From Desulfovibrio sp. (GTDB taxonomy: Bacteria; Desulfobacterota; Desulfovibrionia; Desulfovibrionales; Desulfovibrionaceae), in contig JACRDI010000042.1 of the NCBI GenBank assembly GCA_016218665.1, forward strand, positions 62,001 to 126,000: DNA of 64,000 nt, given 5' to 3'. Positions within the stretch are counted from its first letter, which is position 1. The number at the start of each line of letters is the position of its first letter. This document shows, piece by piece, positions 11,521 to 59,364 of the stretch. The position numbers were made by a program, and so were the translations under genes. Below the pieces are notes generated by a model, which searched no databases, had not been told where the DNA came from, and saw only the letters and a list, made by a program, of their open reading frames with translations.

Positions 11521-13454
11521 CCGCAAAACCAGCCCCCCAGCCCATGATTCCGGCCGAGAGCGGCAAGGAGCTGCTGGCCCGAGTCTCTCGCCCGGCGGAC
11601 GTGGCCGCCATGAACCCGGCCCAGCTGGCCGAGCTGGCCGGAGAGCTGCGCCGCGTCATCATCGAGCAGTGCTCCACCGGCGGCGGGCACCTTGCGCCGT
11701 CGCTGGGCGTGGTGGACCTCACCCTGGCGCTGTTCAAGGCCTACAACCTTGAGGAAGACCGCCTCATCTGGGACGTGGGGCACCAGGCCTACGCCCACAA
11801 GCTGCTCACCGGCCGGGCGGACCAGTTCCACACCCTGCGCAAGCTGGGCGGGGTGTCCGGCTTCCCCAAAATGAGCGAGAGCCCCTACGACCACTTCGGC
11901 GTGGGGCACGCCAGCACCAGCATCTCCGCCGCGCTGGGCATGGCCGTCGCGCGCGACCTGGAAGGCAGGAAGCACGAGGTGGTGGCCGTCATCGGCGACG
12001 GCTCCATGACCTCGGGCCTGGCCTACGAGGGCCTGAACCAGGCGGGCGGCATGGGCTCCAAGATGGTGGTGGTGCTGAACGACAACGAGATGTCCATCTC
12101 CAAGAACGTGGGCGCGCTGTCGAATTTCCTCTCGCGCAAGCTCTCGCGCCCCGCGCCCCAGCGCTTCAAGCGCGAGTTCGAGTCCTGGCTGTCGGGCATC
12201 CCCCGCATCGGCAAGGACCTGGCCATGTTCGCCCGCCGCAGCGAGGACTCGCTCAAGAGCTTCTTCACTCCGGGCATGCTGTTCGAGGCCTTCCGCTTCA
12301 CCTACGTGGGCCCGGTGGACGGCCACGACATCGCGGCCCTGGTGGACGTCTTCGAGCAGACCAAGGGCATGGACCGGCCGGTGCTGGTGCACGTGCTGAC
12401 CAAGAAAGGCAAGGGCTACGACCCTGCCGAAACCAATCCCACCTATTTCCACGGCGTGGGCAGCTTCGAGCCCGAGACCGGCCTTGCGCCGAAGAAGCTG
12501 GGCGGCGGGCCCAAGAGCTACACCGAGGTCTTCGGCGAGAGCCTGTGCCGCCTGGCCGACGCCGATCCGCGCATCGTGGCCATCACCGCGGCCATGCCCG
12601 AGGGCACGGGGACCGACTGCTTCCGCAAACGCCACCCGGAGCGCTTCGTGGACGTGGGCATCTGCGAGCCCCACGCCGTGACCTTCGCCGCGGGCCTGGC
12701 CACGCGCGGGCACATCCCGGCCGTGGCCATCTACTCCACCTTTTTGCAGCGCTCCTACGACCAGGTGGTGCACGACGTGTGCCTGCAGAACCTGGACGTG
12801 AAGTTTTTCCTGGACCGCGCGGGCCTTGTGGGCGAGGACGGCGCCACGCACCACGGCGTGTACGACATCGCCTACCTGCGGCACGTGCCGGGGCTCACCT
12901 TCATGGCGCCCAAGGACGAGGCCGAGCTGGCCCAGATGGTGGCCACGGCCTTCGCCACGCCGGGGCCGGTGGCCGTGCGCTATCCGCGCGGCGTGGGCCA
13001 CGGGGCCGAGGTGCAGGAGAAGCCCGACCTCCTGCCCATCGGCCAGGGCGAGCTGCTGCGCGAGGGCGAGGACGCGGTGATCCTGGCCATCGGCTCCCGC
13101 GTGTACCCGGCGCTGGAATGCGCCCAGGAGCTGGAGCGCGAGCACGGCCTGTCCGTGGCGGTGTTCAACGCCCGGTTCATCAAGCCCCTGCCCGAGGCCC
13201 AGCTGCTTGAGCTGGCCGGGCAGTACCACCGCATCCTGACGGCCGAGGAAGGCTGCCTGTCCGGCGGCTTCGGCTCCGCAGTGCTGGAGTTCTACGCCGA
13301 CAAGGGCGTGCTGCCGGGCCTCAAGCTCAAGCGCGTGGGCATCCCGGACCTGTTCATCGAGCATGGCGCGGCCAAGGAGCTGCGCGCCAAGGCCGGCGTG
13401 GACAAGGCGGGCATCAAGGCCGCCGTGCTGGCTTTGTGCGGCGTTATAGGTTAG
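11517..13454 (+). CDS. dxs: 1-deoxy-D-xylulose-5-phosphate synthase
   Basis: Thiamine-diphosphate enzyme joining pyruvate and glyceraldehyde 3-phosphate, the first step of the MEP isoprenoid pathway. Diagnostic segments: GGGHLAPSLGVVDLTLALF, WDVGHQAYAHKLLTGR, GDGSMTSGLAYEGLN (ThDP/Mg motif), LNDNEMSIS, and in the pyrimidine domain DGATHHGVYDIAYLR. The start taken is TTG at 11517, overlapping the ispA stop, with GGAG about eight bases upstream; an ATG at 11544 lacks a ribosome-binding site. 645 residues is normal. Last gene of the xseA-dxs operon; the sequence becomes AT-rich immediately afterwards. Confidence 0.96.
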   Translation: MTAKPAPQPMIPAESGKELLARVSRPADVAAMNPAQLAELAGELRRVIIEQCSTGGGHLAPSLGVVDLTLALFKAYNLEEDRLIWDVGHQAYAHKLLTGRADQFHTLRKLGGVSGFPKMSESPYDHFGVGHASTSISAALGMAVARDLEGRKHEVVAVIGDGSMTSGLAYEGLNQAGGMGSKMVVVLNDNEMSISKNVGALSNFLSRKLSRPAPQRFKREFESWLSGIPRIGKDLAMFARRSEDSLKSFFTPGMLFEAFRFTYVGPVDGHDIAALVDVFEQTKGMDRPVLVHVLTKKGKGYDPAETNPTYFHGVGSFEPETGLAPKKLGGGPKSYTEVFGESLCRLADADPRIVAITAAMPEGTGTDCFRKRHPERFVDVGICEPHAVTFAAGLATRGHIPAVAIYSTFLQRSYDQVVHDVCLQNLDVKFFLDRAGLVGEDGATHHGVYDIAYLRHVPGLTFMAPKDEAELAQMVATAFATPGPVAVRYPRGVGHGAEVQEKPDLLPIGQGELLREGEDAVILAIGSRVYPALECAQELEREHGLSVAVFNARFIKPLPEAQLLELAGQYHRILTAEEGCLSGGFGSAVLEFYADKGVLPGLKLKRVGIPDLFIEHGAAKELRAKAGVDKAGIKAAVLALCGVIG

Positions 13455-13507
13455 GTGATCCTGCAGGCTGCCGACCCAAAGAGGTTTGTTGCTATCTGGA
13501 GGGCACG

Positions 13508-15085
13508 ATGACTTTACCCATGCCGGAATCGATGAATTTGCTGGGACAACGGTCAGGATATAAAAGTCAGGAAGATAGGAAGACGGCCGAACTTGTTTTT
13601 GTTCTTGTTGAACCAATCGGAGGAGGGGCAAAGCAAGCAGCTCAGGCTTTGGCTGAAATTTTGGAGTCACCATCTTATCAATATGCGGTCAATCCTATCA
13701 AGATTAGTGAAATAATACAGGAGGAAGCAGAAAAACGTCCGCTGGATGAACCTGCGATGCATGGCGATCTGGCAGCAGTAGGTTTTGGATTATCTGAAGA
13801 GAGCAAAAGAATTAATAGACTCCAGCAGTGGGGGAACCAGCTGCGGAATATTAATGGCCCGGATTATCTTGCCAAGAAAACTATACAGAAAATATTTGAG
13901 TATCGACTTGAGAATGGTGGGTTTGTTGACCCACAGGCTGATAATCTTATTCCTCAGCCAATTCGAGTCGTGCACATTGTCCGATCGATTAAGAATAAAG
14001 CGGAGTATTCTCTTTTGAGGTCGGTTTATGGGCCGATGATGATTCTTGTTGCTGTCAGTGGTGACTATGAACAACAAGTGAAGAATTTTCATCAGCTAGC
14101 TGACGCAAGAGAAGAAAACTCAAGAATATTTAAAGAATATGAGGTTCTTGCAGCGATTGATCAAAAAGAAGGCCCTGATCATGGTCAACAGGTCCGTGAT
14201 GTCTTTTACCGGGCTAATCTTTTCATAAACTCTAATGTTAGTACTTTAAAAGACGATATCTGTAAGTTTCTAAGTTTGTTGTTTTCGTCTCGCATAATTA
14301 GCCCGACGCGAGAAGAGCGAATGATGTTCGAGGCGTTTTCAGCAAGCGTTAGGTCTACATGTTTGTCTAGACAAGTCGGTGCAGCGATAGAAGATGTGTA
14401 TGGAGACCTTGTTTCTGTCGGATGGAACGATGTTCCAGCATATGGTGGGGGTGTTGCTACAGACAATGTGCATGAGCATGTCTTGTGTAAGCATGCTCGA
14501 CAGTGTCGAAGTAACAAGGAAAAAAATCTAATGCTCTCTGCGGCGTATGTAAAATTTCAATCTTCTGGTTTGCTAAAGCAAAAAGTGTCAAAAGAGAAAT
14601 TTGAAGAATTATTGAAAGCTAGTATTACTAATGATTTAATAGAGTTTTCAAGAGCAATTCACGCTGAAATGGAGGCAATTCTGTCTGCTGCTCGAGGATG
14701 TAAGGCTGGGCTACGTGGTGGTACATTGTATGTTACAACGTACCCATGCGATAATTGTGTGAAACATATCCTCGCCGCCGGTATCAAGCGCGTTGTTTAC
14801 ATCGAGCCATACCCAAAGAGTCGTGCCAAGGCATTTTTTTCGGATTTTCTGGCTGATGACAATCAGCCGTCTGAAGCTGAAGGCCGGTTGCAAATGGCAC
14901 AGTTTATCGGTATAGCTCCAGAATCATATGTCACGTTGTTCCGCCAGTGCGGTGAAAGAAAAGACAAAAATGGTTTTTTGCTTAACCGTAGCGTTTCGCC
15001 AATGCCCCGAACTGCGGCCTTTCTCGATGGCTATACTCATTATGAAGGGCTAATAGCGATGGAGGCGACGAATGAAGAAAAATAA
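13508..15085 (+). CDS. AvcD-like anti-phage deoxycytidylate deaminase
   Basis: Two-domain nucleotide deaminase of 525 residues, matching the AvcD / defence dCTP-deaminase family, which stops phage by depleting deoxycytidine nucleotides (family knowledge). The N-terminal half resembles a P-loop kinase fold with a degenerate loop, ELVFVLVEPIGGGAKQ (about residues 28-43), lacking a GK[S/T]. The C-terminal half is a zinc cytidine/dCMP deaminase: HAE at 385-387 and PCDNC with Cys414 and Cys417 give the His-Cys-Cys site and catalytic Glu387. GGAGGG lies about five bases before the ATG. Codon use and base composition are strikingly AT-rich compared with both flanks, indicating transfer. A coupled small gene follows. 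Confidence 0.9.
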   Translation: MTLPMPESMNLLGQRSGYKSQEDRKTAELVFVLVEPIGGGAKQAAQALAEILESPSYQYAVNPIKISEIIQEEAEKRPLDEPAMHGDLAAVGFGLSEESKRINRLQQWGNQLRNINGPDYLAKKTIQKIFEYRLENGGFVDPQADNLIPQPIRVVHIVRSIKNKAEYSLLRSVYGPMMILVAVSGDYEQQVKNFHQLADAREENSRIFKEYEVLAAIDQKEGPDHGQQVRDVFYRANLFINSNVSTLKDDICKFLSLLFSSRIISPTREERMMFEAFSASVRSTCLSRQVGAAIEDVYGDLVSVGWNDVPAYGGGVATDNVHEHVLCKHARQCRSNKEKNLMLSAAYVKFQSSGLLKQKVSKEKFEELLKASITNDLIEFSRAIHAEMEAILSAARGCKAGLRGGTLYVTTYPCDNCVKHILAAGIKRVVYIEPYPKSRAKAFFSDFLADDNQPSEAEGRLQMAQFIGIAPESYVTLFRQCGERKDKNGFLLNRSVSPMPRTAAFLDGYTHYEGLIAMEATNEEK

Positions 15086-38619: not shown

Positions 38620-41058
38620 ATGCACATCAGTTTGCAGTGGCTGCGAGAGTTCGTCCCCTTCCAGGGCACCGTGCAGGAACTGGCCGAGCGCCTGACCATG
38701 CAGGGCCTGGAGGTCGAGGCCATCATCGACCCCTTCGAGGCCATCGCCTCCATCGTGGTGGGCCATGTGTTGGAGTGCGCCGACCACCCGGATTCCGACC
38801 ACCTGCACGTGTGCTCCGTGGACGTGGGCGGGCCCGAGGTTCTGCAGATCGTGTGCGGCGCGCCCAACGTGGCCAAGGGGCAGAAGGTGCCCGTGGCCCT
38901 CATCGGCACCACCATGCCCGGCGGCATGCAGATCAAGAAGGGCAAGCTGCGCGGCGTGGCCTCCCACGGCATGATCTGCTCCGAGCGCGAGCTTGGCCTC
39001 TCCGAGGACCACGAAGGCATCATGGTCCTGCCGGAAACCTTCGCCCCCGGCAAACTGCTGGTGGACGCCCTGGGCCTTGAGCGCGAGGTCATCGAGGTCT
39101 CCATCACGCCCAACCGCGCCGACTGCCTGTCCGTGCTGGGCATCGCCCGCGAGACCGCGCTGGGCTTCGGCCTGCCGCTGACCATGCCCGCGCTGAACCT
39201 GAAGGAAGACGCCAGCGCCGGCGACGCCAACACGGTCGTGCGCATCGACATCGCCGACGGCGAGCTCTGCCCGGTGTACCGCGCCCGCGCCCTCACCGGC
39301 GTGAAGATCGCCAAAAGCCCGGACTGGATGCGCTACCGGCTCATCGCCATCGGCCAGCGGCCCATCAGCAACATTGTGGACGTGACCAACTACATTTTGA
39401 TGGAGCTGGGCCAGCCCCTGCACGCCTTTGACAACAAGCTGCTCAAGGGCGGCGTCATCCGCGTCGCACCTGCCACCCCCGATCAGCAGGACGGGCAGAG
39501 CATCACCACCCTGGACGGCCAGGAGCGCAAGCTCCTCGCCAGCGACCTGCTCATCTGGGACGGCGAGCGCCCGGTGGCCCTGGCCGGCGTCATGGGCGGG
39601 GCCAATTCCAGCGTCAGCGACGAGACCACCGAGGTCTTGCTTGAGTGCGCCATCTTCCGGCCCGGCACCATCCGCAAAACCGCCCGCAGGCTGGCCTTGC
39701 CGAGCGAGGCCTCCTACCGATTTGAAAGGGGCGTGGACCAGGTGGGCTCGCTCTTCGCCCTGGAGCGCGCGGCCCAGCTCATGGCCGAGGTCTCCGGCGC
39801 CAGGGTGCTCACGGGCATCGCCATGGCCGAGCCCAAGCCCTGGGCCGAGCGCAGCCACGGCTTCCGCATCGACCGCTGCAACGCGCTCCTGGGCCTTTCC
39901 CTGACCCCGGAATTCTGCAAGACCACCCTCACCGGCCTGGGCTGCACCGTCGATGACAGCAACGCTGCCAACTGGCGCGTCACCTCGCCCCCGCACCGCC
40001 TGGACCTGGAGCGCGAGGTGGACCTGTTCGAGGAGTGCGGCCGCGTGCATGGCCTGGACCGCATCCCCGCCGTGCTGCCGAGGATTTCCAAGTCCCTGGA
40101 CTCCGTGCAGATGCGCGACACCGAGTTCGGCTTCCTGCAGCGCCTCAAGGCCTGGGCCGTGGGCGCCGGCCTGCGCGAGGCCATCAACTACAGCTTTGTG
40201 GGCACCGACGACCTGGACCGCCTGAACCTGCCCGTCGAAGGCCGCATCACAATCGCCAACCCGCTGTCCGAGGACCAGAACGTGCTGCGCACGGAGATCG
40301 CCCCCGGCCTGCTGAACAACGTGCGCCACAATCTGGCCCAGGGCAACGCCAGCTTGCGCCTGTTCGAGGTGGCCAAGGCCTTTGTCGAGGACACCACGAG
40401 CGACACCGGCGCGCGCGAGAACTCTCGCTTAGGGATGCTGGTGCACGGCGCGCGGCACAGCCAGGAATGGCCGTGGGAGCAGGGCGAGGCCGACTACCTG
40501 GACGTGAAGGGCCTGGTGGAGAACCTGCTGGCGCACCTGCGCTTGGGCCCGGCCAGCTTCATCCTTGAGCCCGCGCACCCCTACCTGGAGCCCTGCGTGC
40601 GGGTGGAGGTGGCCGCGAAGTCCGGCGTGCGCCTGGTTGGCCGCATGGGCCGGGTGCAGCCCAAGATCGCCGACGCCTACCACGCCCGCAAGGACATCTG
40701 GCTGGCGGACATGGACGCCGATCTGCTTCGCGAGCTCTCCCGCGCCACCAAGCCCAGCTTCAAGAGCCTGCCCAAGTTCCCGCCCGTGCGGCGCGACGTG
40801 ACGGTCATCTGCCCGGCCACGCTGCACGCCGAGGCCATCGAGGCGGCCGTGCTGGAGATCAAGCCCAAGAACCTGGAGAGCCTGGCCCTGGTGGCGGTCT
40901 ATGCCCCCGAAGGCCCGGCCGACGGGAAGGGCGAGCGCAACCTGACCTTCCGCCTCACCTACCGCCACGCGGACCGCACCCTGGTGGACAAGGAAGTGGA
41001 CAAGGAGCACGGCAAGGTGCTTTCCGGCCTGCCGCAAAAGCTGCCGGTGCGCATCTAG
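38620..41058 (+). CDS. pheT: Phenylalanyl-tRNA synthetase beta subunit
   Basis: Beta subunit of 812 residues: EMAP-like tRNA-binding domain near residues 40-150 (VVGHVLECADHPDSDHLHVCSVDVG), the B3/B4 editing domain (PNRADCLSVLGIARE; RPISNIVDVTNYILMELGQPLHAFD), B5, the catalytic-like core and a C-terminal anticodon-binding FDX-ACB domain (KFPPVRRDVTVI; LTFRLTYRHADRTL). A 147-base gap after pheS is unusual for an operon but holds no obvious promoter. Last gene of the translation operon; a strong terminator follows. Confidence 0.96.
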   Translation: MHISLQWLREFVPFQGTVQELAERLTMQGLEVEAIIDPFEAIASIVVGHVLECADHPDSDHLHVCSVDVGGPEVLQIVCGAPNVAKGQKVPVALIGTTMPGGMQIKKGKLRGVASHGMICSERELGLSEDHEGIMVLPETFAPGKLLVDALGLEREVIEVSITPNRADCLSVLGIARETALGFGLPLTMPALNLKEDASAGDANTVVRIDIADGELCPVYRARALTGVKIAKSPDWMRYRLIAIGQRPISNIVDVTNYILMELGQPLHAFDNKLLKGGVIRVAPATPDQQDGQSITTLDGQERKLLASDLLIWDGERPVALAGVMGGANSSVSDETTEVLLECAIFRPGTIRKTARRLALPSEASYRFERGVDQVGSLFALERAAQLMAEVSGARVLTGIAMAEPKPWAERSHGFRIDRCNALLGLSLTPEFCKTTLTGLGCTVDDSNAANWRVTSPPHRLDLEREVDLFEECGRVHGLDRIPAVLPRISKSLDSVQMRDTEFGFLQRLKAWAVGAGLREAINYSFVGTDDLDRLNLPVEGRITIANPLSEDQNVLRTEIAPGLLNNVRHNLAQGNASLRLFEVAKAFVEDTTSDTGARENSRLGMLVHGARHSQEWPWEQGEADYLDVKGLVENLLAHLRLGPASFILEPAHPYLEPCVRVEVAAKSGVRLVGRMGRVQPKIADAYHARKDIWLADMDADLLRELSRATKPSFKSLPKFPPVRRDVTVICPATLHAEAIEAAVLEIKPKNLESLALVAVYAPEGPADGKGERNLTFRLTYRHADRTLVDKEVDKEHGKVLSGLPQKLPVRI

Positions 41059-41069
41059 TCGCAATCAGA

Positions 41070-41119
41070 ACGAATCCCGCACAGGGAATGAAGAAGGGGA
41101 GTCCGCGAGGGCTCCCCTT
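41070..41119 (+). repeat. Left copy of an exact 50-bp direct repeat
   Basis: Identical to 41780-41829 (offset 710). It starts 12 bases after the pheT stop and contains the terminator stem. Together with the right copy it brackets the toxin-antitoxin genes. Confidence 0.95.
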
Positions 41120-41175: not shown

Positions 41176-41454
41176 ATGGCATGGACGGTGGAGCTCTCTA
41201 AGCGCGCGGCCAAGACGCTGCCCCGGTTGCCGAAGTCCATTGCCCTTGCGCTGGGCCTGCTGCTGCGCGAAATGGAGACCGCCGGGCCCGTGCGCGGAAA
41301 TTGGAGCAACTATGGCAAGCTGGGGCCGGGCAGGCACCACTGCCATTTGAAGAAAGGCAAACCGACCTATGTGGCTGTGTGGATCGAAGTCCAGGGCCGG
41401 GTCAAGCTCATAGAGGTGACGTATGTTGGAACGCACGAAGGCGCACCCTACTGA
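41176..41454 (+). CDS. RelE/HigB-like toxin
   Basis: A 92-residue protein of the RelE-fold (cytotoxic translational repressor) type: MAWTVELSKRAAKTLPRLPKSIALAL matches the N-terminal strand-helix of the family, and a GNWSNYGKLGPGRHHCHLKKGKPTYVAVWIEVQG stretch the C-terminal sheet, with several basic residues where RelE-type toxins cut mRNA on the ribosome. There is no ribosome-binding site, consistent with a leaderless message. The next gene, an HTH protein, begins inside its 3' end; toxin-first order is typical of HigBA. Confidence 0.85.
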   Translation: MAWTVELSKRAAKTLPRLPKSIALALGLLLREMETAGPVRGNWSNYGKLGPGRHHCHLKKGKPTYVAVWIEVQGRVKLIEVTYVGTHEGAPY

Positions 41455-41770
41455 TTGCGTGGAGCTGCGGTTCGTGGTGCCTGCGTCCAAGGCAGACGCC
41501 GTGCGCCGGGCGGTTGCGCCGTTTATTGCCGATGCCGAGGCCGGGGTGCCCTGGCGCGAGGCGCTGGTCATTGCGGATGCGGAACTGCCCGGGGCCATGG
41601 TCAAGGGCGGCCGCGTGAAGGAAGGGCTGACCCAGGCGCAGCTGGCCGCGCTGGTGGGCATCCCGCAGCGGCACGTGTCGGAAATGGAGCACGGCAAGCG
41701 GCCCATTGGCAAGGAAATGGCCAAGCGGCTGGGCAAGGCGCTTGGGGTCGGCTACAAGGTTTTCTTGTAG
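41423..41770 (+). CDS. HTH antitoxin of the RelE/HigB-like pair
   Basis: A 115-residue protein whose C-terminal half is an XRE-type helix-turn-helix (GLTQAQLAALVGIPQRHVSEMEHGKRPIGKEMAKRLGKALG); the N-terminal half (VELRFVVPASKADAVRRAVAPFIADA) presumably neutralises the toxin. The ATG overlaps the toxin gene by 32 bases and has GAGG six bases upstream. The HTH probably binds the module promoter. The right 50-bp repeat begins nine bases after the stop. Confidence 0.85.
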   Translation: MLERTKAHPTDCVELRFVVPASKADAVRRAVAPFIADAEAGVPWREALVIADAELPGAMVKGGRVKEGLTQAQLAALVGIPQRHVSEMEHGKRPIGKEMAKRLGKALGVGYKVFL

Positions 41771-41779
41771 GCTCATCGC

Positions 41780-41829
41780 ACGAATCCCGCACAGGGAATG
41801 AAGAAGGGGAGTCCGCGAGGGCTCCCCTT
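41780..41829 (+). repeat. Right copy of the 50-bp direct repeat
   Basis: Exact copy of 41070-41119, including the 11-bp GNRA-capped stem but without a good T-tract. It separates the antitoxin from the AT-rich metallo-beta-lactamase-fold gene. Confidence 0.95.
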
Positions 41830-41863: not shown

Positions 41864-42643
41864 CTATAAAGACCAAGTCAGGCTATTGTCATTTCTTGTT
41901 GTTAATACATAGCGAGTCTCGCCATTGAATGTTATTCCGGAGGCATGCTTGTTGTATTTATTTGTTGTTTCCTGCGTCGCATGTTGTACATTGCTATCAG
42001 AAAATATAAAACATTTTGGTTTGCAGTAGCTGAATACCGCTTCGCAGTATCCGTTTTCTCTGCCATGATGTGATGCAATGAAATAGTCTACGTCAGAAAT
42101 GTCAGCTCTAAATGTGTCGTTTTTTAGTAGGTTCTCCCACCCAGCAGTTTCAACGTCTCCAGGTATAATAAATTTTGTGCCAGAACACTTAATAACTGTT
42201 ACAAGACTAATATTGTTGGTGTCTGAAAACTCTGCTCCATACTTGTTGCAGTAACAAGTGTATGAGACATTTGGGAATGCTGGGTTGTCTTCTGGGCGCA
42301 CGTCTGTAGCGTATGTGTTTATGAGGCCGAGCATCGATTGCATTGAATCAGTTATATATCCAGTATCTTGTTTAATTTTTCGAAGTTGCTCGGCGGTGAC
42401 TGATCTATTTCTGTGTAAAATTTTGATTGTGAATTTGGAAATAATATTTGGAAGATCACTGATGTGATCTTCGTCATAATTTGTTATAAACAACCTGTTT
42501 ATTGTCTTTATGCCTTGTGAATATAAAATCGTTGCCGGGTTGCACCAGTCTGAGTGCCCACAATCCCATAAAATTACATTTCCGTTTTCATGAACCAGCG
42601 ATATGCATTGTCCATGTCCAACATCGTGAATAGTTAGTTTCAT
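41864..42643 (-). CDS. ComEC-like metallo-beta-lactamase-fold protein
   Basis: A 259-residue cytoplasmic protein with the MBL core typical of ComEC-associated hydrolases: IHDVGHGQCISLVHENGNVILWDCG (strands and Asp27), TNYDEDH at 54-60, Asp163 in IIPGDVE, SHHG at 191-194 and His221. The usual first metal ligand His of HxDxDH is replaced by Asn55, a substitution that seems shared by stand-alone relatives. It may be a nuclease or phosphodiesterase; the substrate is unknown. The gene is clearly AT-rich. It overlaps the upstream membrane-protein gene by four bases, so the two act together. Confidence 0.82.
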   Translation of the reverse strand: MKLTIHDVGHGQCISLVHENGNVILWDCGHSDWCNPATILYSQGIKTINRLFITNYDEDHISDLPNIISKFTIKILHRNRSVTAEQLRKIKQDTGYITDSMQSMLGLINTYATDVRPEDNPAFPNVSYTCYCNKYGAEFSDTNNISLVTVIKCSGTKFIIPGDVETAGWENLLKNDTFRADISDVDYFIASHHGRENGYCEAVFSYCKPKCFIFSDSNVQHATQETTNKYNKHASGITFNGETRYVLTTRNDNSLTWSL

Positions 42644-43194
42644 CTCTCTTCCTCTGTCGTTCTCGAAGATGTGTTGGACTTACTGATGCCCCATGTCGTT
42701 TTAGCAATTTCTTCAACTCTGATATAAAATTTATCAACGTTAAATCCAGCTATATATGATATCGCAAGAGCGCCATATATGTTTGTAGGTTCTGCGCTGA
42801 CGGCGAGGATCAAAAGGCCAGCCCGGACGAAAATATAGGCAGCAATGCCCGCTAGTGCGCTTGTGATTGGCCTCAAAAAGTACCACGTGTGCCAATTAGT
42901 ATCCCATCGAGTGTATACACACCTGTTAAGATAAACTGCCCGGAGGCAATATGTTATCCCAGCAAGATTTCCTGTGAGCATACATTTAAACCCGAGATCG
43001 TGACCTTGGAGCCAAATAGGCAACATGTCTTGGAGCATTGCACACCATGAGACAGCGAGTACACCCAGCCAGATTAATAAGTATAAAACAACTAGCGCCA
43101 TTATTGCCCACTTAAGTTTTGGTTTATAAACATGTATTCGATGACAATTAAATCTGTCAAGATCTCCTCCCCCCTCCCCCTTCCCCCCCGCCAT
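42640..43194 (-). CDS. Unknown multi-pass membrane protein paired with the MBL-fold gene
   Basis: A 184-residue protein. A short N-terminal Gly-rich stretch is followed by a strong membrane segment (WAIMALVVLYLLIWLGVLAVSW, about 29-50), a weaker one near 70-90, and two more near 110-133 and 138-150 (ALAGIAAYIFVRAGLLILAVSA; YGALAISYIAGF). The end YIAGFNVDKFYIRVEEIAKTTWG is amphipathic. I do not recognise a named family; the layout is like small 3-4 TM membrane effectors of defence systems. AT-rich, overlaps the MBL gene by four bases. The start is ten bases from the divergent MerR-type gene. Confidence 0.75.
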   Translation of the reverse strand: MAGGKGEGGGDLDRFNCHRIHVYKPKLKWAIMALVVLYLLIWLGVLAVSWCAMLQDMLPIWLQGHDLGFKCMLTGNLAGITYCLRAVYLNRCVYTRWDTNWHTWYFLRPITSALAGIAAYIFVRAGLLILAVSAEPTNIYGALAISYIAGFNVDKFYIRVEEIAKTTWGISKSNTSSRTTEEER

Positions 43195-43204
43195 TTCCTC
43201 TGCT

Positions 43205-43783
43205 ATGACTTTAACTATGGAAGCAGGCGCGAAGGGAAAGACCTATAAAATCGGGCAGGCGGCCAAGCTGTTGGACGTCAAGCCCTTTGTGCTGCGCTTC
43301 TGGGAGGGCGAGTTCAAGGACGTGCTCGTCCCCGTGCGCACCCCCAGCGGCCAGCGCGCCTACACCGAGGCCAACGTGGCCCTGGTGCGAGAGATCAAGC
43401 GCCTGCTCTACGACGAAGGTCTGACCATCGACGGCGCCAAGAAGCGCCTGCGCGAGTCCAAGGGCAGGCCGACGGGCAAGCCGGGGGGCAGTGGCCTTGG
43501 CAAGCCGACGGCCACGGCCGAGCCCGCGCCGCCCCTCGCCGCCGTCCCTGGCGTTCAGCCCAGCCTGCTGGACGCGCCCCCCGGAACATCCATGCCAGAG
43601 CAGGGCGCGCCGGACCCTGCGACCCAGGGGACCCTCGCCGCCGCGCAGGCGGCCGCCCAGGCCGCAGGGCAGGAGGCCGCCCACGCCAAGGCCCGCGCCG
43701 AGGCCCTGGCCGCGACCCTCTCCGAAGCCGCCAGCGAACTGCAAGCAATCCGCGCCCTGCTGGCCAAAGGTCCGGCACACTAG
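43205..43783 (+). CDS. MerR family transcriptional regulator
   Basis: A 192-residue protein with an N-terminal winged HTH (TYKIGQAAKLLDVKPFVLRFWEGEF; PSGQRAYTEANVALVREIKRLLYDEGLTIDGAKKRL) and a long Ala/Pro-rich tail ending in a helix (ALAATLSEAASELQAIRALL). No metal-binding Cys. Start at 43205 or 43217; neither has a recognisable ribosome-binding site, and the AT-rich accessory patch ends right here, so the native leader may have been cut by the insertion. Confidence 0.88.
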   Translation: MTLTMEAGAKGKTYKIGQAAKLLDVKPFVLRFWEGEFKDVLVPVRTPSGQRAYTEANVALVREIKRLLYDEGLTIDGAKKRLRESKGRPTGKPGGSGLGKPTATAEPAPPLAAVPGVQPSLLDAPPGTSMPEQGAPDPATQGTLAAAQAAAQAAGQEAAHAKARAEALAATLSEAASELQAIRALLAKGPAH

Positions 43784-46001: not shown

Positions 46002-46793
46002 ATGCACCGCTTTGCATTTTTCGTCGATGGATCGAATCTCTACGGTTCGCTACGTACCATGAACCTGGAAATAGCGAATTACGGACATCTATACGCGCAC
46101 ATCTACCGCGAAGCGGTGAAACAGTGGCATGAGGTGACCCTGCAGACCGCGCCGCCCGTGGCCCAGCTGCGCCGCGTGTACTGGTACGTGGTGGGCTCCG
46201 TGGATGACTGGGACCTCTCCGCGCCGCAGTCGCGCACGGCCCTGCGCGCCGCCTTCGTGCGCGACGCAGAGATCCGCGCCCTGTGGATGACGCGGGCCTC
46301 CATCGCCAACCCCGCCCTGCCCGAGGGCGAGCTGGAGGAGGCCGCCTGGAACGCCTGCGCGGCGGACTTCCGCGAGTGGTACATGCAGAAGGTGCGCGCC
46401 ATCGACGGCATGCGCCGCTTCTACGCCGGGGTGCGCGCCTCCTCGGACCTCATCGACATCCGCGAGGCCGGGCATTGGAAGGTGAACTTCCTGCACCGCT
46501 GGGTGGAGGAAAAGGGCCTGGACACCGCGCTGGCCGTGGACATGGTGGCCCTGCAGGACAACTACGACGTGGCCATCGTCGTCTCCGGCGACGCCGACGC
46601 CATCCCCTCCATCCGCCACCTGAAGGAGCGCGGCAAGCACATCGGCGCGGTGGAGTTCGTGGGCGGCGGCGCGGCCGACGCGCGCGGCCGGGCCTTCTCC
46701 TCGCGCCTCAAGAGCCACGCGGATTTCGTGCTGCGTGTGCACGAGCAGGATCTGCTGCACCTGGACCATCGCAACAAAAGCGCGGGCTCCTAG
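46002..46793 (+). CDS. NYN domain protein (PIN-like nuclease fold)
   Basis: A 263-residue protein of the NYN/DUF88 (LabA-like) group. The active-site Asp residues are in AFFVDGSNLYGSLRTMN, in TALAVDMVALQDNYDVAIVVSGDADAIPSIRHL, the set expected of a metal-dependent RNase. GHWKVNFLHRWVEEKGLD is the usual K-x-V-D region variant. It follows the AsmA gene by 24 bases. Role unknown; RNA processing is inferred from the family. Confidence 0.88.
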   Translation: MHRFAFFVDGSNLYGSLRTMNLEIANYGHLYAHIYREAVKQWHEVTLQTAPPVAQLRRVYWYVVGSVDDWDLSAPQSRTALRAAFVRDAEIRALWMTRASIANPALPEGELEEAAWNACAADFREWYMQKVRAIDGMRRFYAGVRASSDLIDIREAGHWKVNFLHRWVEEKGLDTALAVDMVALQDNYDVAIVVSGDADAIPSIRHLKERGKHIGAVEFVGGGAADARGRAFSSRLKSHADFVLRVHEQDLLHLDHRNKSAGS

Positions 46794-58524: not shown

Positions 58525-59364
58525 CTACCCAGCCCTTTGCTTTTTAAGAAGTTCTCTCAGCTGTCTTTTCTCTGACTCTTCGAGTTGCTTGCGAATGAGT
58601 TTTCTGCCAGCAGCCAGAAGCAAACGGTCAATGTCGCCGGGAATGCTTATGCTTTCCCCGATTTTATTCCGTTGCTCCTCGGAGAGCGAATCGTAGCACC
58701 GTTGGACCACTTGCTCTAAACTTGTCTGCGCGGTGGACTCTGGCGAAGGCGTGACTGTTGAGCCTTTGTCGGGTTTTGGTTGGTCCTGGCAACAGGCTGG
58801 CCCGACAGTCTTTGGCGTTGCCGCCTTTGTTGGGCTGGCAAACTCAAGGATGGATGACTCTGGCCAGTGACACTTTCTGTCGACCTCGCAGCGCAGATAT
58901 GCGGCTGCAGAGCTCTTTTGATTAAGCGTGAGTAAGTGAATTCTGAGTCCAAGCCCCTGTGCTGCGACAACCCCAGGTGTAAGATCTGCATCACCAGAAA
59001 GAATGAGGGCTTCAGAAATCGCTCTGTTCTGCGCAAGCCCAATTATGTCAGCGATTATGAGCCCATCAACCCCTTTCTGCTGACCAACCACGTTTCTTGT
59101 TCCAAGGCGGAGTTTGAAATCATCCAGTTGTTCGATCGCTTTGTGTTCTTCCGCCTTGCCCCCATTGCTAGGTCCATCGTACCAATAGATTCGCAAGAGG
59201 CTTGCTTCGGGAAATTCTTCCTTTGCAACCTTTAGTAGCTTTTGCCTCAGAATTTCATAGCTTAAGGAAACCTCTCTTCGGGGCGCGTTTTTATTGCGCA
59301 GGGTCGCGTAAAGGGTGTGTGCCCATAGGTACCCGGCATCGACAAAGATAGCCAATCTCCGCAT
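58525..59364 (-). CDS. NYN domain protein with helical C-terminus, AT-rich
   Basis: A 279-residue protein of the LabA/DUF88 NYN family: FVDAGYLWAHTLYATLRN (first Asp), QQKGVDGLIIADIIGLAQ (KGVD motif), ALILSGDADLTPGVVAAQGLGLRIHLL (paired Asp), the metal site of predicted RNases. A Pro/Ser-rich linker and a Glu/Lys-rich helical end (SLSEEQRNKIGESISIPGDIDRLLL; KRQLRELLKKQ) follow. Base composition is clearly less GC-rich than its neighbours, so the gene is probably acquired. GGAGAAG eight bases before the ATG lies directly after a long hairpin. Differs from the NYN protein at 46 kb. Confidence 0.87.
   Translation of the reverse strand: MRRLAIFVDAGYLWAHTLYATLRNKNAPRREVSLSYEILRQKLLKVAKEEFPEASLLRIYWYDGPSNGGKAEEHKAIEQLDDFKLRLGTRNVVGQQKGVDGLIIADIIGLAQNRAISEALILSGDADLTPGVVAAQGLGLRIHLLTLNQKSSAAAYLRCEVDRKCHWPESSILEFASPTKAATPKTVGPACCQDQPKPDKGSTVTPSPESTAQTSLEQVVQRCYDSLSEEQRNKIGESISIPGDIDRLLLAAGRKLIRKQLEESEKRQLRELLKKQRAG

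Follow-up and report, generated by a model that had tools for sequence, protein, structure and literature searches.

Closely related E2-E1 and JAB proteins of bacterial ubiquitin-like operons are accompanied by an MBL protein in the operons designated 6a and by a pol-beta nucleotidyltransferase in those designated 6b, and the 6a operons usually consist of two genes, one for the MBL protein and one for an E2-E1-JAB protein (Iyer 2006, PMC1779556, available sections). For the Bub operons, protection against phages is not demonstrated in the available text of PMC13373217. Other described systems with which the present locus can be compared are CBASS, which has a phospholipase effector, CapV (PMC10097602, available text), the pairs of an MBL nuclease and a protease that have been added to unrelated immune systems (Hachiman, AVAST, Lamassu, DRT; PMC12799240, accessible portion), the competence protein ComEC/Rec2 and the candidate system PDC-M48 of PADLOC.

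The genes considered here encode a small membrane protein and an MBL-fold protein and lie side by side in a 64-kb stretch of Desulfovibrio sp. DNA (the whole stretch of 64,000 nucleotides is referred to as the window; Table 1). An earlier note, made from the letters alone, had proposed them as a candidate new defence system. The pair probably serves in the defence of bacteria against viruses, an association that is well supported by the sequence surroundings of its relatives. The word defence stood, by way of the immune operons in which the relatives occur, and the word new stood only in part, since PADLOC lists PDC-M48. The kind of unit found in the window appears to be in PADLOC already as a candidate; what is added to that candidate is the membrane-protein family of the window and its link to the ubiquitin-like operons. 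No description of the window pair was found in the literature searched on PDC-M48 or MBL defence, with preprints and most subscription papers lying outside this search, and no MBL system was found in the accessible part of PMC13092281.

Table 1. Features of the pheT-merR interval in the window
Feature	Position	Strand	Remarks
pheT, constant left border of the hotspot	38620..41058	+	translation; with merR in 10/13 sister stretches
50-bp perfect repeat, copy 1, holding the pheT terminator hairpin	41070..41119	+	repeat and terminator scans
toxin-like half of a toxin-antitoxin-like unit	41176..41454	+	named by position only; outside the pair
HTH antitoxin-like gene, neighbouring cargo outside the pair	41423..41770	+	Pfam HTH_3 2e-11
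50-bp perfect repeat, copy 2, left edge of the pair	41780..41829	+	repeat scan
MBL-fold hydrolase, ComEC type	41864..42643	-	259 aa, ATG start; N-x-D-x-D-H clade, PDC-M48B-like
small membrane protein	42640..43194	-	ORF of 184 aa, ATG; homologous core 42640-43101 (153 aa from M32)
right edge of the insert: merR leader conserved in sister genomes	43160..43204	.	10 genomes and the window
merR-type gene, constant right border of the hotspot	43205..43783	+	Pfam MerR_1 4e-17

The B component of PDC-M48 is present in the window as the MBL protein, which the PDC-M48B model PDLC04674 matches at 3e-56 over residues 1-254 of 259, and the two genes are adjacent on one strand, as in PDC-M48. The A component was not recognised, and membership in PDC-M48 was rejected on this ground: the window membrane protein and 27 relatives match no PADLOC model, and among the membrane partners scanned together with that of locus L025, only the L025 protein matches PDC-M48A (1.5e-4), besides Csx27 (7e-7). 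The membrane family of the window also occurs in 6a operons, at L019, L027-L030 and 12 of the scan loci, and the short MBL subfamily to which the window protein belongs does so at L020-L022; the short MBL is without the Gly tail of the MBL2 protein of these operons. No E2-E1-JAB gene lies between pheT and merR at the window locus, and none was matched when the 84%-complete genome from which the window comes was searched with one E2-E1-JAB protein; a Pfam E2 search matched no control and is uninformative by itself. In the accessible portion of PMC12799240, the MBL nuclease-protease pairs likewise place a ComEC-type MBL in a transferable pair, whereas the partner there is a trypsin-like protease, of which none was found among the five proteins scanned (Pfam and NCBIfam; four also with PADLOC), and the modelled window MBL differs from that MBL in having no long low-confidence insertion. 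The likeness to CBASS type I is one of working only, namely an enzyme with an exchangeable, often membrane-acting effector; no CD-NTase or nucleotidyltransferase was found among the same five proteins, and the window pair is therefore not a member of CBASS. With ComEC/Rec2 the window protein shares the homology of the MBL domain, while the competence channel domain is missing from its 259 residues; a plain ComEC fragment was thus ruled out in favour of a stand-alone MBL fold.

The two minus-strand ORFs share the bases ATGA, which bears out the four-base overlap that had been described. The base composition, reported as sharply different from both flanks, is 40% GC over 41864-43160 against 60-73% in the flanks, and the lowest-GC 1.3-kb segment of the window starts near 41865 (segment mean 66.8%, sd 6.1%). 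A chance AT-rich patch was rejected on this ranking. The merR-type gene starts 10 bp from the annotated start of the membrane ORF, on the opposite strand, and the first ~10 codons of that ORF (MAGGKGEGGG) are the merR leader conserved in sister genomes, so that the true start of the membrane gene should lie further in, perhaps at M32. Many homologues start near M32 (43101) and several reach roughly 10-15 residues further upstream. By the same conservation of the leader, the inserted DNA ends near 43160-43172. A promoter had been considered for the start of the membrane gene, but the scan did not list one there, and none is claimed.

pheT and the merR-type gene, the two flanks named in the earlier note, and the HTH toxin-antitoxin-like genes between them were all located as described, by translation and Pfam. 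The toxin-like ORF has no match in Pfam or NCBIfam. A 50-bp direct repeat of the pheT terminator flanks the toxin-antitoxin-like unit on both sides, and a doubled terminator hairpin with a similar unit is also present in the sister genome G010 (L088); it is hence conceivable that the unit arrived with or by duplication of the terminator. A merR-type gene was matched in 14 of 15 same-genus genomes, including that of the window. When 13 sister stretches were compared, pheT and merR were in one piece in 10 and pheT was not found in three; the spacer between the two genes measures 1.1-2.9 kb in the 10 genomes, its cargo varies, and in seven it holds a gene of 35-51% GC. The seven encode an enzyme of Mrr type, broken into two pieces (PADLOC mREase_IV 3.5e-28 and 2e-18), a retron reverse transcriptase of type VI (genome G006, L091 666-1607, PADLOC RT_VI 5e-81), a DUF4238 protein (PADLOC DUF4238-Pers 4e-15), an AAA ATPase (PADLOC best 5.7e-5; Pfam AAA_22 4.9e-9), a protein of 184 aa and two unknown proteins, one of 330 and one of 317 aa. 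Of the three remaining spacers, one has a toxin-antitoxin-like unit with other sequence, one a methyltransferase gene (62% GC), and in the third no cargo is clear. The pheT-merR spot is a hotspot, and from its sequence the window pair, the cargo of this genome, looks like a travelling two-gene unit.

Some further genes were recorded along the way. The AT-rich 317-aa protein of sister genome G005 (L098 1160-2113), which is without a Pfam or PADLOC match, resembles by eye a class III nucleotide-cyclase fold and is a candidate for it. The window itself contains a second AT-rich island at 13436-15085 (+), which at ~42% GC is the next lowest. It encodes a protein of 549 aa in which a long N-terminal region precedes a dCMP/cytidine deaminase domain (residues 292-456, Pfam 8.8e-16); the protein presumably resembles the AvcD-type antiphage deaminases. 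NYN-domain proteins are encoded at 46002-46793 (+; Pfam 7.8e-10) and at 58525-59364 (-; Pfam 2.8e-8), the latter with an unusually low GC3 (0.51).

The Pfam Lactamase_B score of the window MBL falls just under the cut-off. A profile of 22 relatives matches the MBL domain of ComEC (9ic4) at 1e-30, and the AlphaFold model (pLDDT 93.6) comprises an MBL fold only. The motifs that had been listed for it, TNYDEDH, Asp163, SHHG and His221, are all present, as N55-Y-D57-E-D59-H60, D163, S-H192-H193-G and H221. D59, H60, N143, S146, G162, D163 and the HHG at 192-194 are invariant in 22 of 22 chosen rows, and D27 is kept in at least 90% of these. Two points of the earlier reading were corrected. Rather than one metal His being replaced by Asn, both His residues of HxH are replaced, by Asn and Asp, and N-x-D-x-D-H is common to the 13 clade members examined, while HxHxDH is kept in four of four other close relatives. 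His221, which had been counted among the kept residues, is not conserved: position 221 is His in six and Tyr in seven of the 13, so that it is probably no metal ligand, and this role was discarded.

The membrane protein, for which the earlier note could name no family, has none in Pfam, NCBIfam or PADLOC (the window protein has no PADLOC match at E<=1), and for the 28 rows of its own family, the window and 27 loci, neither PADLOC nor NCBIfam gave a match at E<=0.01. A solved relative was sought and none was found at E<=1. It is predicted to adopt a helical membrane fold: the AlphaFold model of the core (pLDDT 88.7) has helices at 2-23, 35-62, 68-98, 106-120 and 122-137. The three to four segments reported earlier agree with modelled helices of 22, 28, 31 and 15 residues (a further one has 16), but the hydropathy plot of the window protein is strong at the first and third helices only. 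In the alignment the family conserves a segment between helices two and three, CLRAVYLNxCVRKxWDxxWxxWYxLRP, which by the positive-inside rule would be cytosolic.

Relatives of the membrane protein were collected by a pattern scan of species genomes, which detects only relatives that hold the patterns. The 31 loci so obtained span Pseudomonadota, Verrucomicrobiota, Planctomycetota, Bacteroidota, Omnitrophota, Neomarinimicrobiota and Eisenbacteria; 27 of them, together with the window, were used for the alignment and tree, L038, L043, L044 and L046 being left out as close copies. The window protein stands on a long branch of the tree, which makes its placement unsure. Plasmid records of the family number 179, mostly from Klebsiella (125) and Escherichia (27), and are not independent of each other.

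Within its own lineage the pair is sporadic. The MBL protein is absent from all 14 other same-genus genomes searched, and 394 other genomes sampled from the phylum gave two weak matches to the membrane protein (1e-7 to 6e-8), in proteins of ~320 aa. A housekeeping or core unit common in related genomes, the outcome that would have spoken against the proposed defence system, is thus ruled out. Other MBL matches in related genomes are mostly ORFs of 545-1027 aa, apart from G087 (298 aa) and G060 (305 aa); in G087, a genome of the same family, an AT-rich pair of the same design occupies another site with a membrane partner of another group. Among 50,697 phage records searched, the membrane protein has no match at E<=0.01 and the MBL protein just four weak ones, and an origin as phage genes was rejected. 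Relatives of the MBL protein occur on six IMG/VR contigs (five full-length, one partial), and each of the six operons holds a membrane-protein gene of another group than that of the window; a scan of viral contigs with MBL2 gave no match.

The two genes are paired across phyla. An MBL gene lies nearby at 29 of the 31 membrane-family loci, and of the other two, L033 has a 65-aa MBL remnant 9 bp downstream and L036 a truncated E1-JAB only; homologues standing singly in housekeeping contexts, as had also been considered, are therefore not what is found. The MBL gene directly follows on the same strand in 16/31 (the L033 remnant included) and directly precedes in two, whereas at other scan loci it is further off or on the opposite strand, mostly in E2-E1-JAB operons. 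E1/E2/JAB genes occur at 12 of the 31 loci, and an immune operon was not seen at 10, whose neighbours lay outside the PADLOC scan; these counts of immune context are raw, without a background rate. The neighbour scan with PADLOC and Pfam covered 10 neighbours from six loci. In L032 the pair has a DUF499 protein (at the Pfam cut-off) and a PglZ-like protein (1.5e-4) on one side and a DUF1156-type methyltransferase (5.9e-34) on the other, an arrangement that L035 and L042 resemble by their sequence starts. The pair follows a type IIG enzyme in L047 and MmeI in L055, is close to a type I R subunit in L057, and in L060 has a DrmD-like helicase and a TIR gene as its two neighbours and a type III methyltransferase further out. 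L050 carries an E2 (PADLOC 9.8e-55), and L051, outside that scan, has the same spacing of MBL2 and membrane gene. Tabulated in this manner, as the earlier note had advised, co-occurrence and neighbours place several pairs in or beside restriction clusters, besides the loci with E1/E2/JAB genes. In L056 and L058 membrane-MBL pairs lie downstream of a long host gene that looks the same in both genomes, and this site may be another insertion hotspot.

The membrane partner changes while the MBL subfamily is retained. The short MBL subfamily was surveyed in 17 loci, including the window, and a membrane-protein gene is present in the operon at 16 of them (none at L023); in L040 and L066 it is one gene away from the MBL gene, and the L069 protein, although under the hydropathy threshold, is a homologue of that of L067. 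By sequence, four to five groups of partner can be told apart: the window family; L021/L066/L068/L070; L020/L022/L002/L071; L067/L069, joined by L026 and weakly by L025; and L024. These need not all be unrelated, as there are weak cross-links (L026 to the L100 protein, 4.7e-6; L069 to L070, 0.017; L024 to the window, 0.04), where, as in all the locus-by-locus comparisons of pairing, clade, partner groups and MBL2, the E-values refer to small ORF sets. In the other direction, at least four MBL types, by the authors' own sorting, occur as partners of the window membrane family. In the operons of L040 (6464-8368) and L066 (663-2461) one membrane protein is followed by two MBL genes, which differ in type.

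The link to the ubiquitin-like operons is provided by the same membrane family. In the plasmid loci L019 and L027-L031, MBL2 and E1/JAB genes are present in five of six; L031 has neither, its membrane gene being an orphan beside IS1. On plasmids of Klebsiella, E. coli and Serratia the membrane gene comes after a WYL gene, with MBL2 and E2-E1-JAB genes alongside, and in these operons it is a remnant in L029, while E2-E1-JAB is split by an IS in L027. It follows MBL2, ThiF and JAB genes in Aeromonas, and in Agrobacterium, Polaromonas and Sphingobium a short MBL with another membrane protein comes after such operons. As a check independent of the membrane protein, seven operons were chosen from a search with MBL2 only (233 records, 45 of them listed). 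Five of the seven (L100, L101, L102, L104, L106) have a membrane protein, of three groups and in some cases on the opposite strand. No membrane protein was seen among the genes looked at in L103, where an S8 peptidase and an ATP-binding protein are encoded upstream, or in L105, which is broken by an IS. In L104 a gene annotated as a patatin-like phospholipase directly follows the ThiF gene, and the CBASS effector CapV is patatin-like; a membrane-MBL pair on the other strand of L104 means that the phospholipase is no clean replacement of a membrane protein and makes this the weaker evidence. The companionship of an MBL protein in 6a and a nucleotidyltransferase in 6b, together with these membrane genes, suggests that the MBL protein stands in the place of the CD-NTase and the membrane protein in that of the effector.

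The MBL2 proteins have a distinctive C-terminus, which in 22 of 27, several being near-copies, is PRAG, HG, GYG or GFG followed by 0-4 residues (L019-L022, L027-L029, L038, L039, L041, L043-L046, L048, L100-L106). The Gly tail is missing from MBL2 of L030, L034, L037, L050 and L051, three of which end in YA or FA and two in neither. As judged from these sequences, it looks like a tail that is trimmed by JAB and can be conjugated.

The reading tentatively favoured is that of a mobile immune module, in which the MBL protein would be a cytosolic, metal-dependent hydrolase of ComEC type that responds to infection and controls a membrane-acting effector. It would release or activate the membrane protein, the inner membrane would be perturbed and the infected cell stopped. 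The layout would be like that of a minimal CBASS, with the MBL protein in the place of the nucleotidyltransferase and an exchangeable membrane effector, and in relatives the ubiquitin-like E2-E1-JAB machine would enlarge the module, much as type II CBASS is an enlarged type I. We infer the stopping of phages, the effector role of the membrane protein and its control by the MBL protein, and favour this assignment of roles because the partner changes while the MBL protein stays and because the larger operons resemble CBASS. The MBL protein may itself be the effector, since ComEC-type MBLs of other defence systems are DNases (PMC12799240, accessible portion). In this main rival, which is possible though not probable, the small protein, serving as anchor, sensor or gate, would keep a ComEC-type DNase at the inner membrane, where this enzyme would destroy incoming or replicating phage DNA. 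The ComEC-like HamM of Hachiman degrades DNA after proteolytic activation, according to the same portion of that source, which is why this rival ranks first; the profile match to the ComEC MBL domain and the metal-site residues invariant in all chosen rows agree with it, a mere anchor would also fit the change of partner, and the 6a operons are usually described without a membrane gene in the available sections of PMC1779556. Against it, the loop and helix 3 are strongly conserved across phyla, probably beyond the need of an anchor, and N-x-D in place of HxH throughout the clade leaves nuclease activity not assured.

That the membrane protein is a toxin and the MBL protein its antidote, an addiction pair keeping plasmids or islands stable with defence incidental, would accord with the overlap of the two genes, their carriage on plasmids and islands and the toxin-antitoxin-like unit next door. 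It is nevertheless improbable, as the invariant catalytic residues favour enzyme action over binding, the genes are placed in RM and E2-E1-JAB operons, and the MBL partner may be upstream, downstream or one gene away. An accessory function on mobile DNA in stress, the envelope or DNA uptake would explain the kinship of the MBL protein with ComEC and the WYL and HTH-peptidase regulators beside some relatives, which by their likely identity are of the DNA-damage-responsive kind (PMC13373217, available text); such a function outside defence has little probability in view of the sporadic distribution, the hotspot common to retron and Mrr and the placement in restriction clusters.

The preferred reading, in which the MBL protein controls a membrane effector, can be extended to a proposal that is more doubtful, namely an immune class of MBL-controlled effectors, so far visible only in pieces, in which a ComEC-type MBL protein would stand in for the nucleotidyltransferase of CBASS and control exchangeable membrane effectors, and of which the window pair would be the minimal form. 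The signal to the membrane effector would be of nucleic-acid type, and the MBL protein would produce, cleave or remove it. In the form with E2-E1-JAB, JAB could trim the Gly tail of MBL2 and E1/E2 could attach MBL2, which would be the conjugated substrate, as the frequency of the tail among MBL2 proteins suggests. The present analysis joins a PADLOC candidate, the unexplained MBL gene of the 6a operons, which were described in 2006, and a membrane-protein family that lies outside the three libraries searched. Should the membrane protein be the effector, with the MBL protein as its control enzyme, the role of MBL in the 6a operons would become testable with a two-gene unit of 1.3 kb, far smaller than a full 6a operon, and the predicted conjugation tail of MBL2 would provide a clear test for the larger form.
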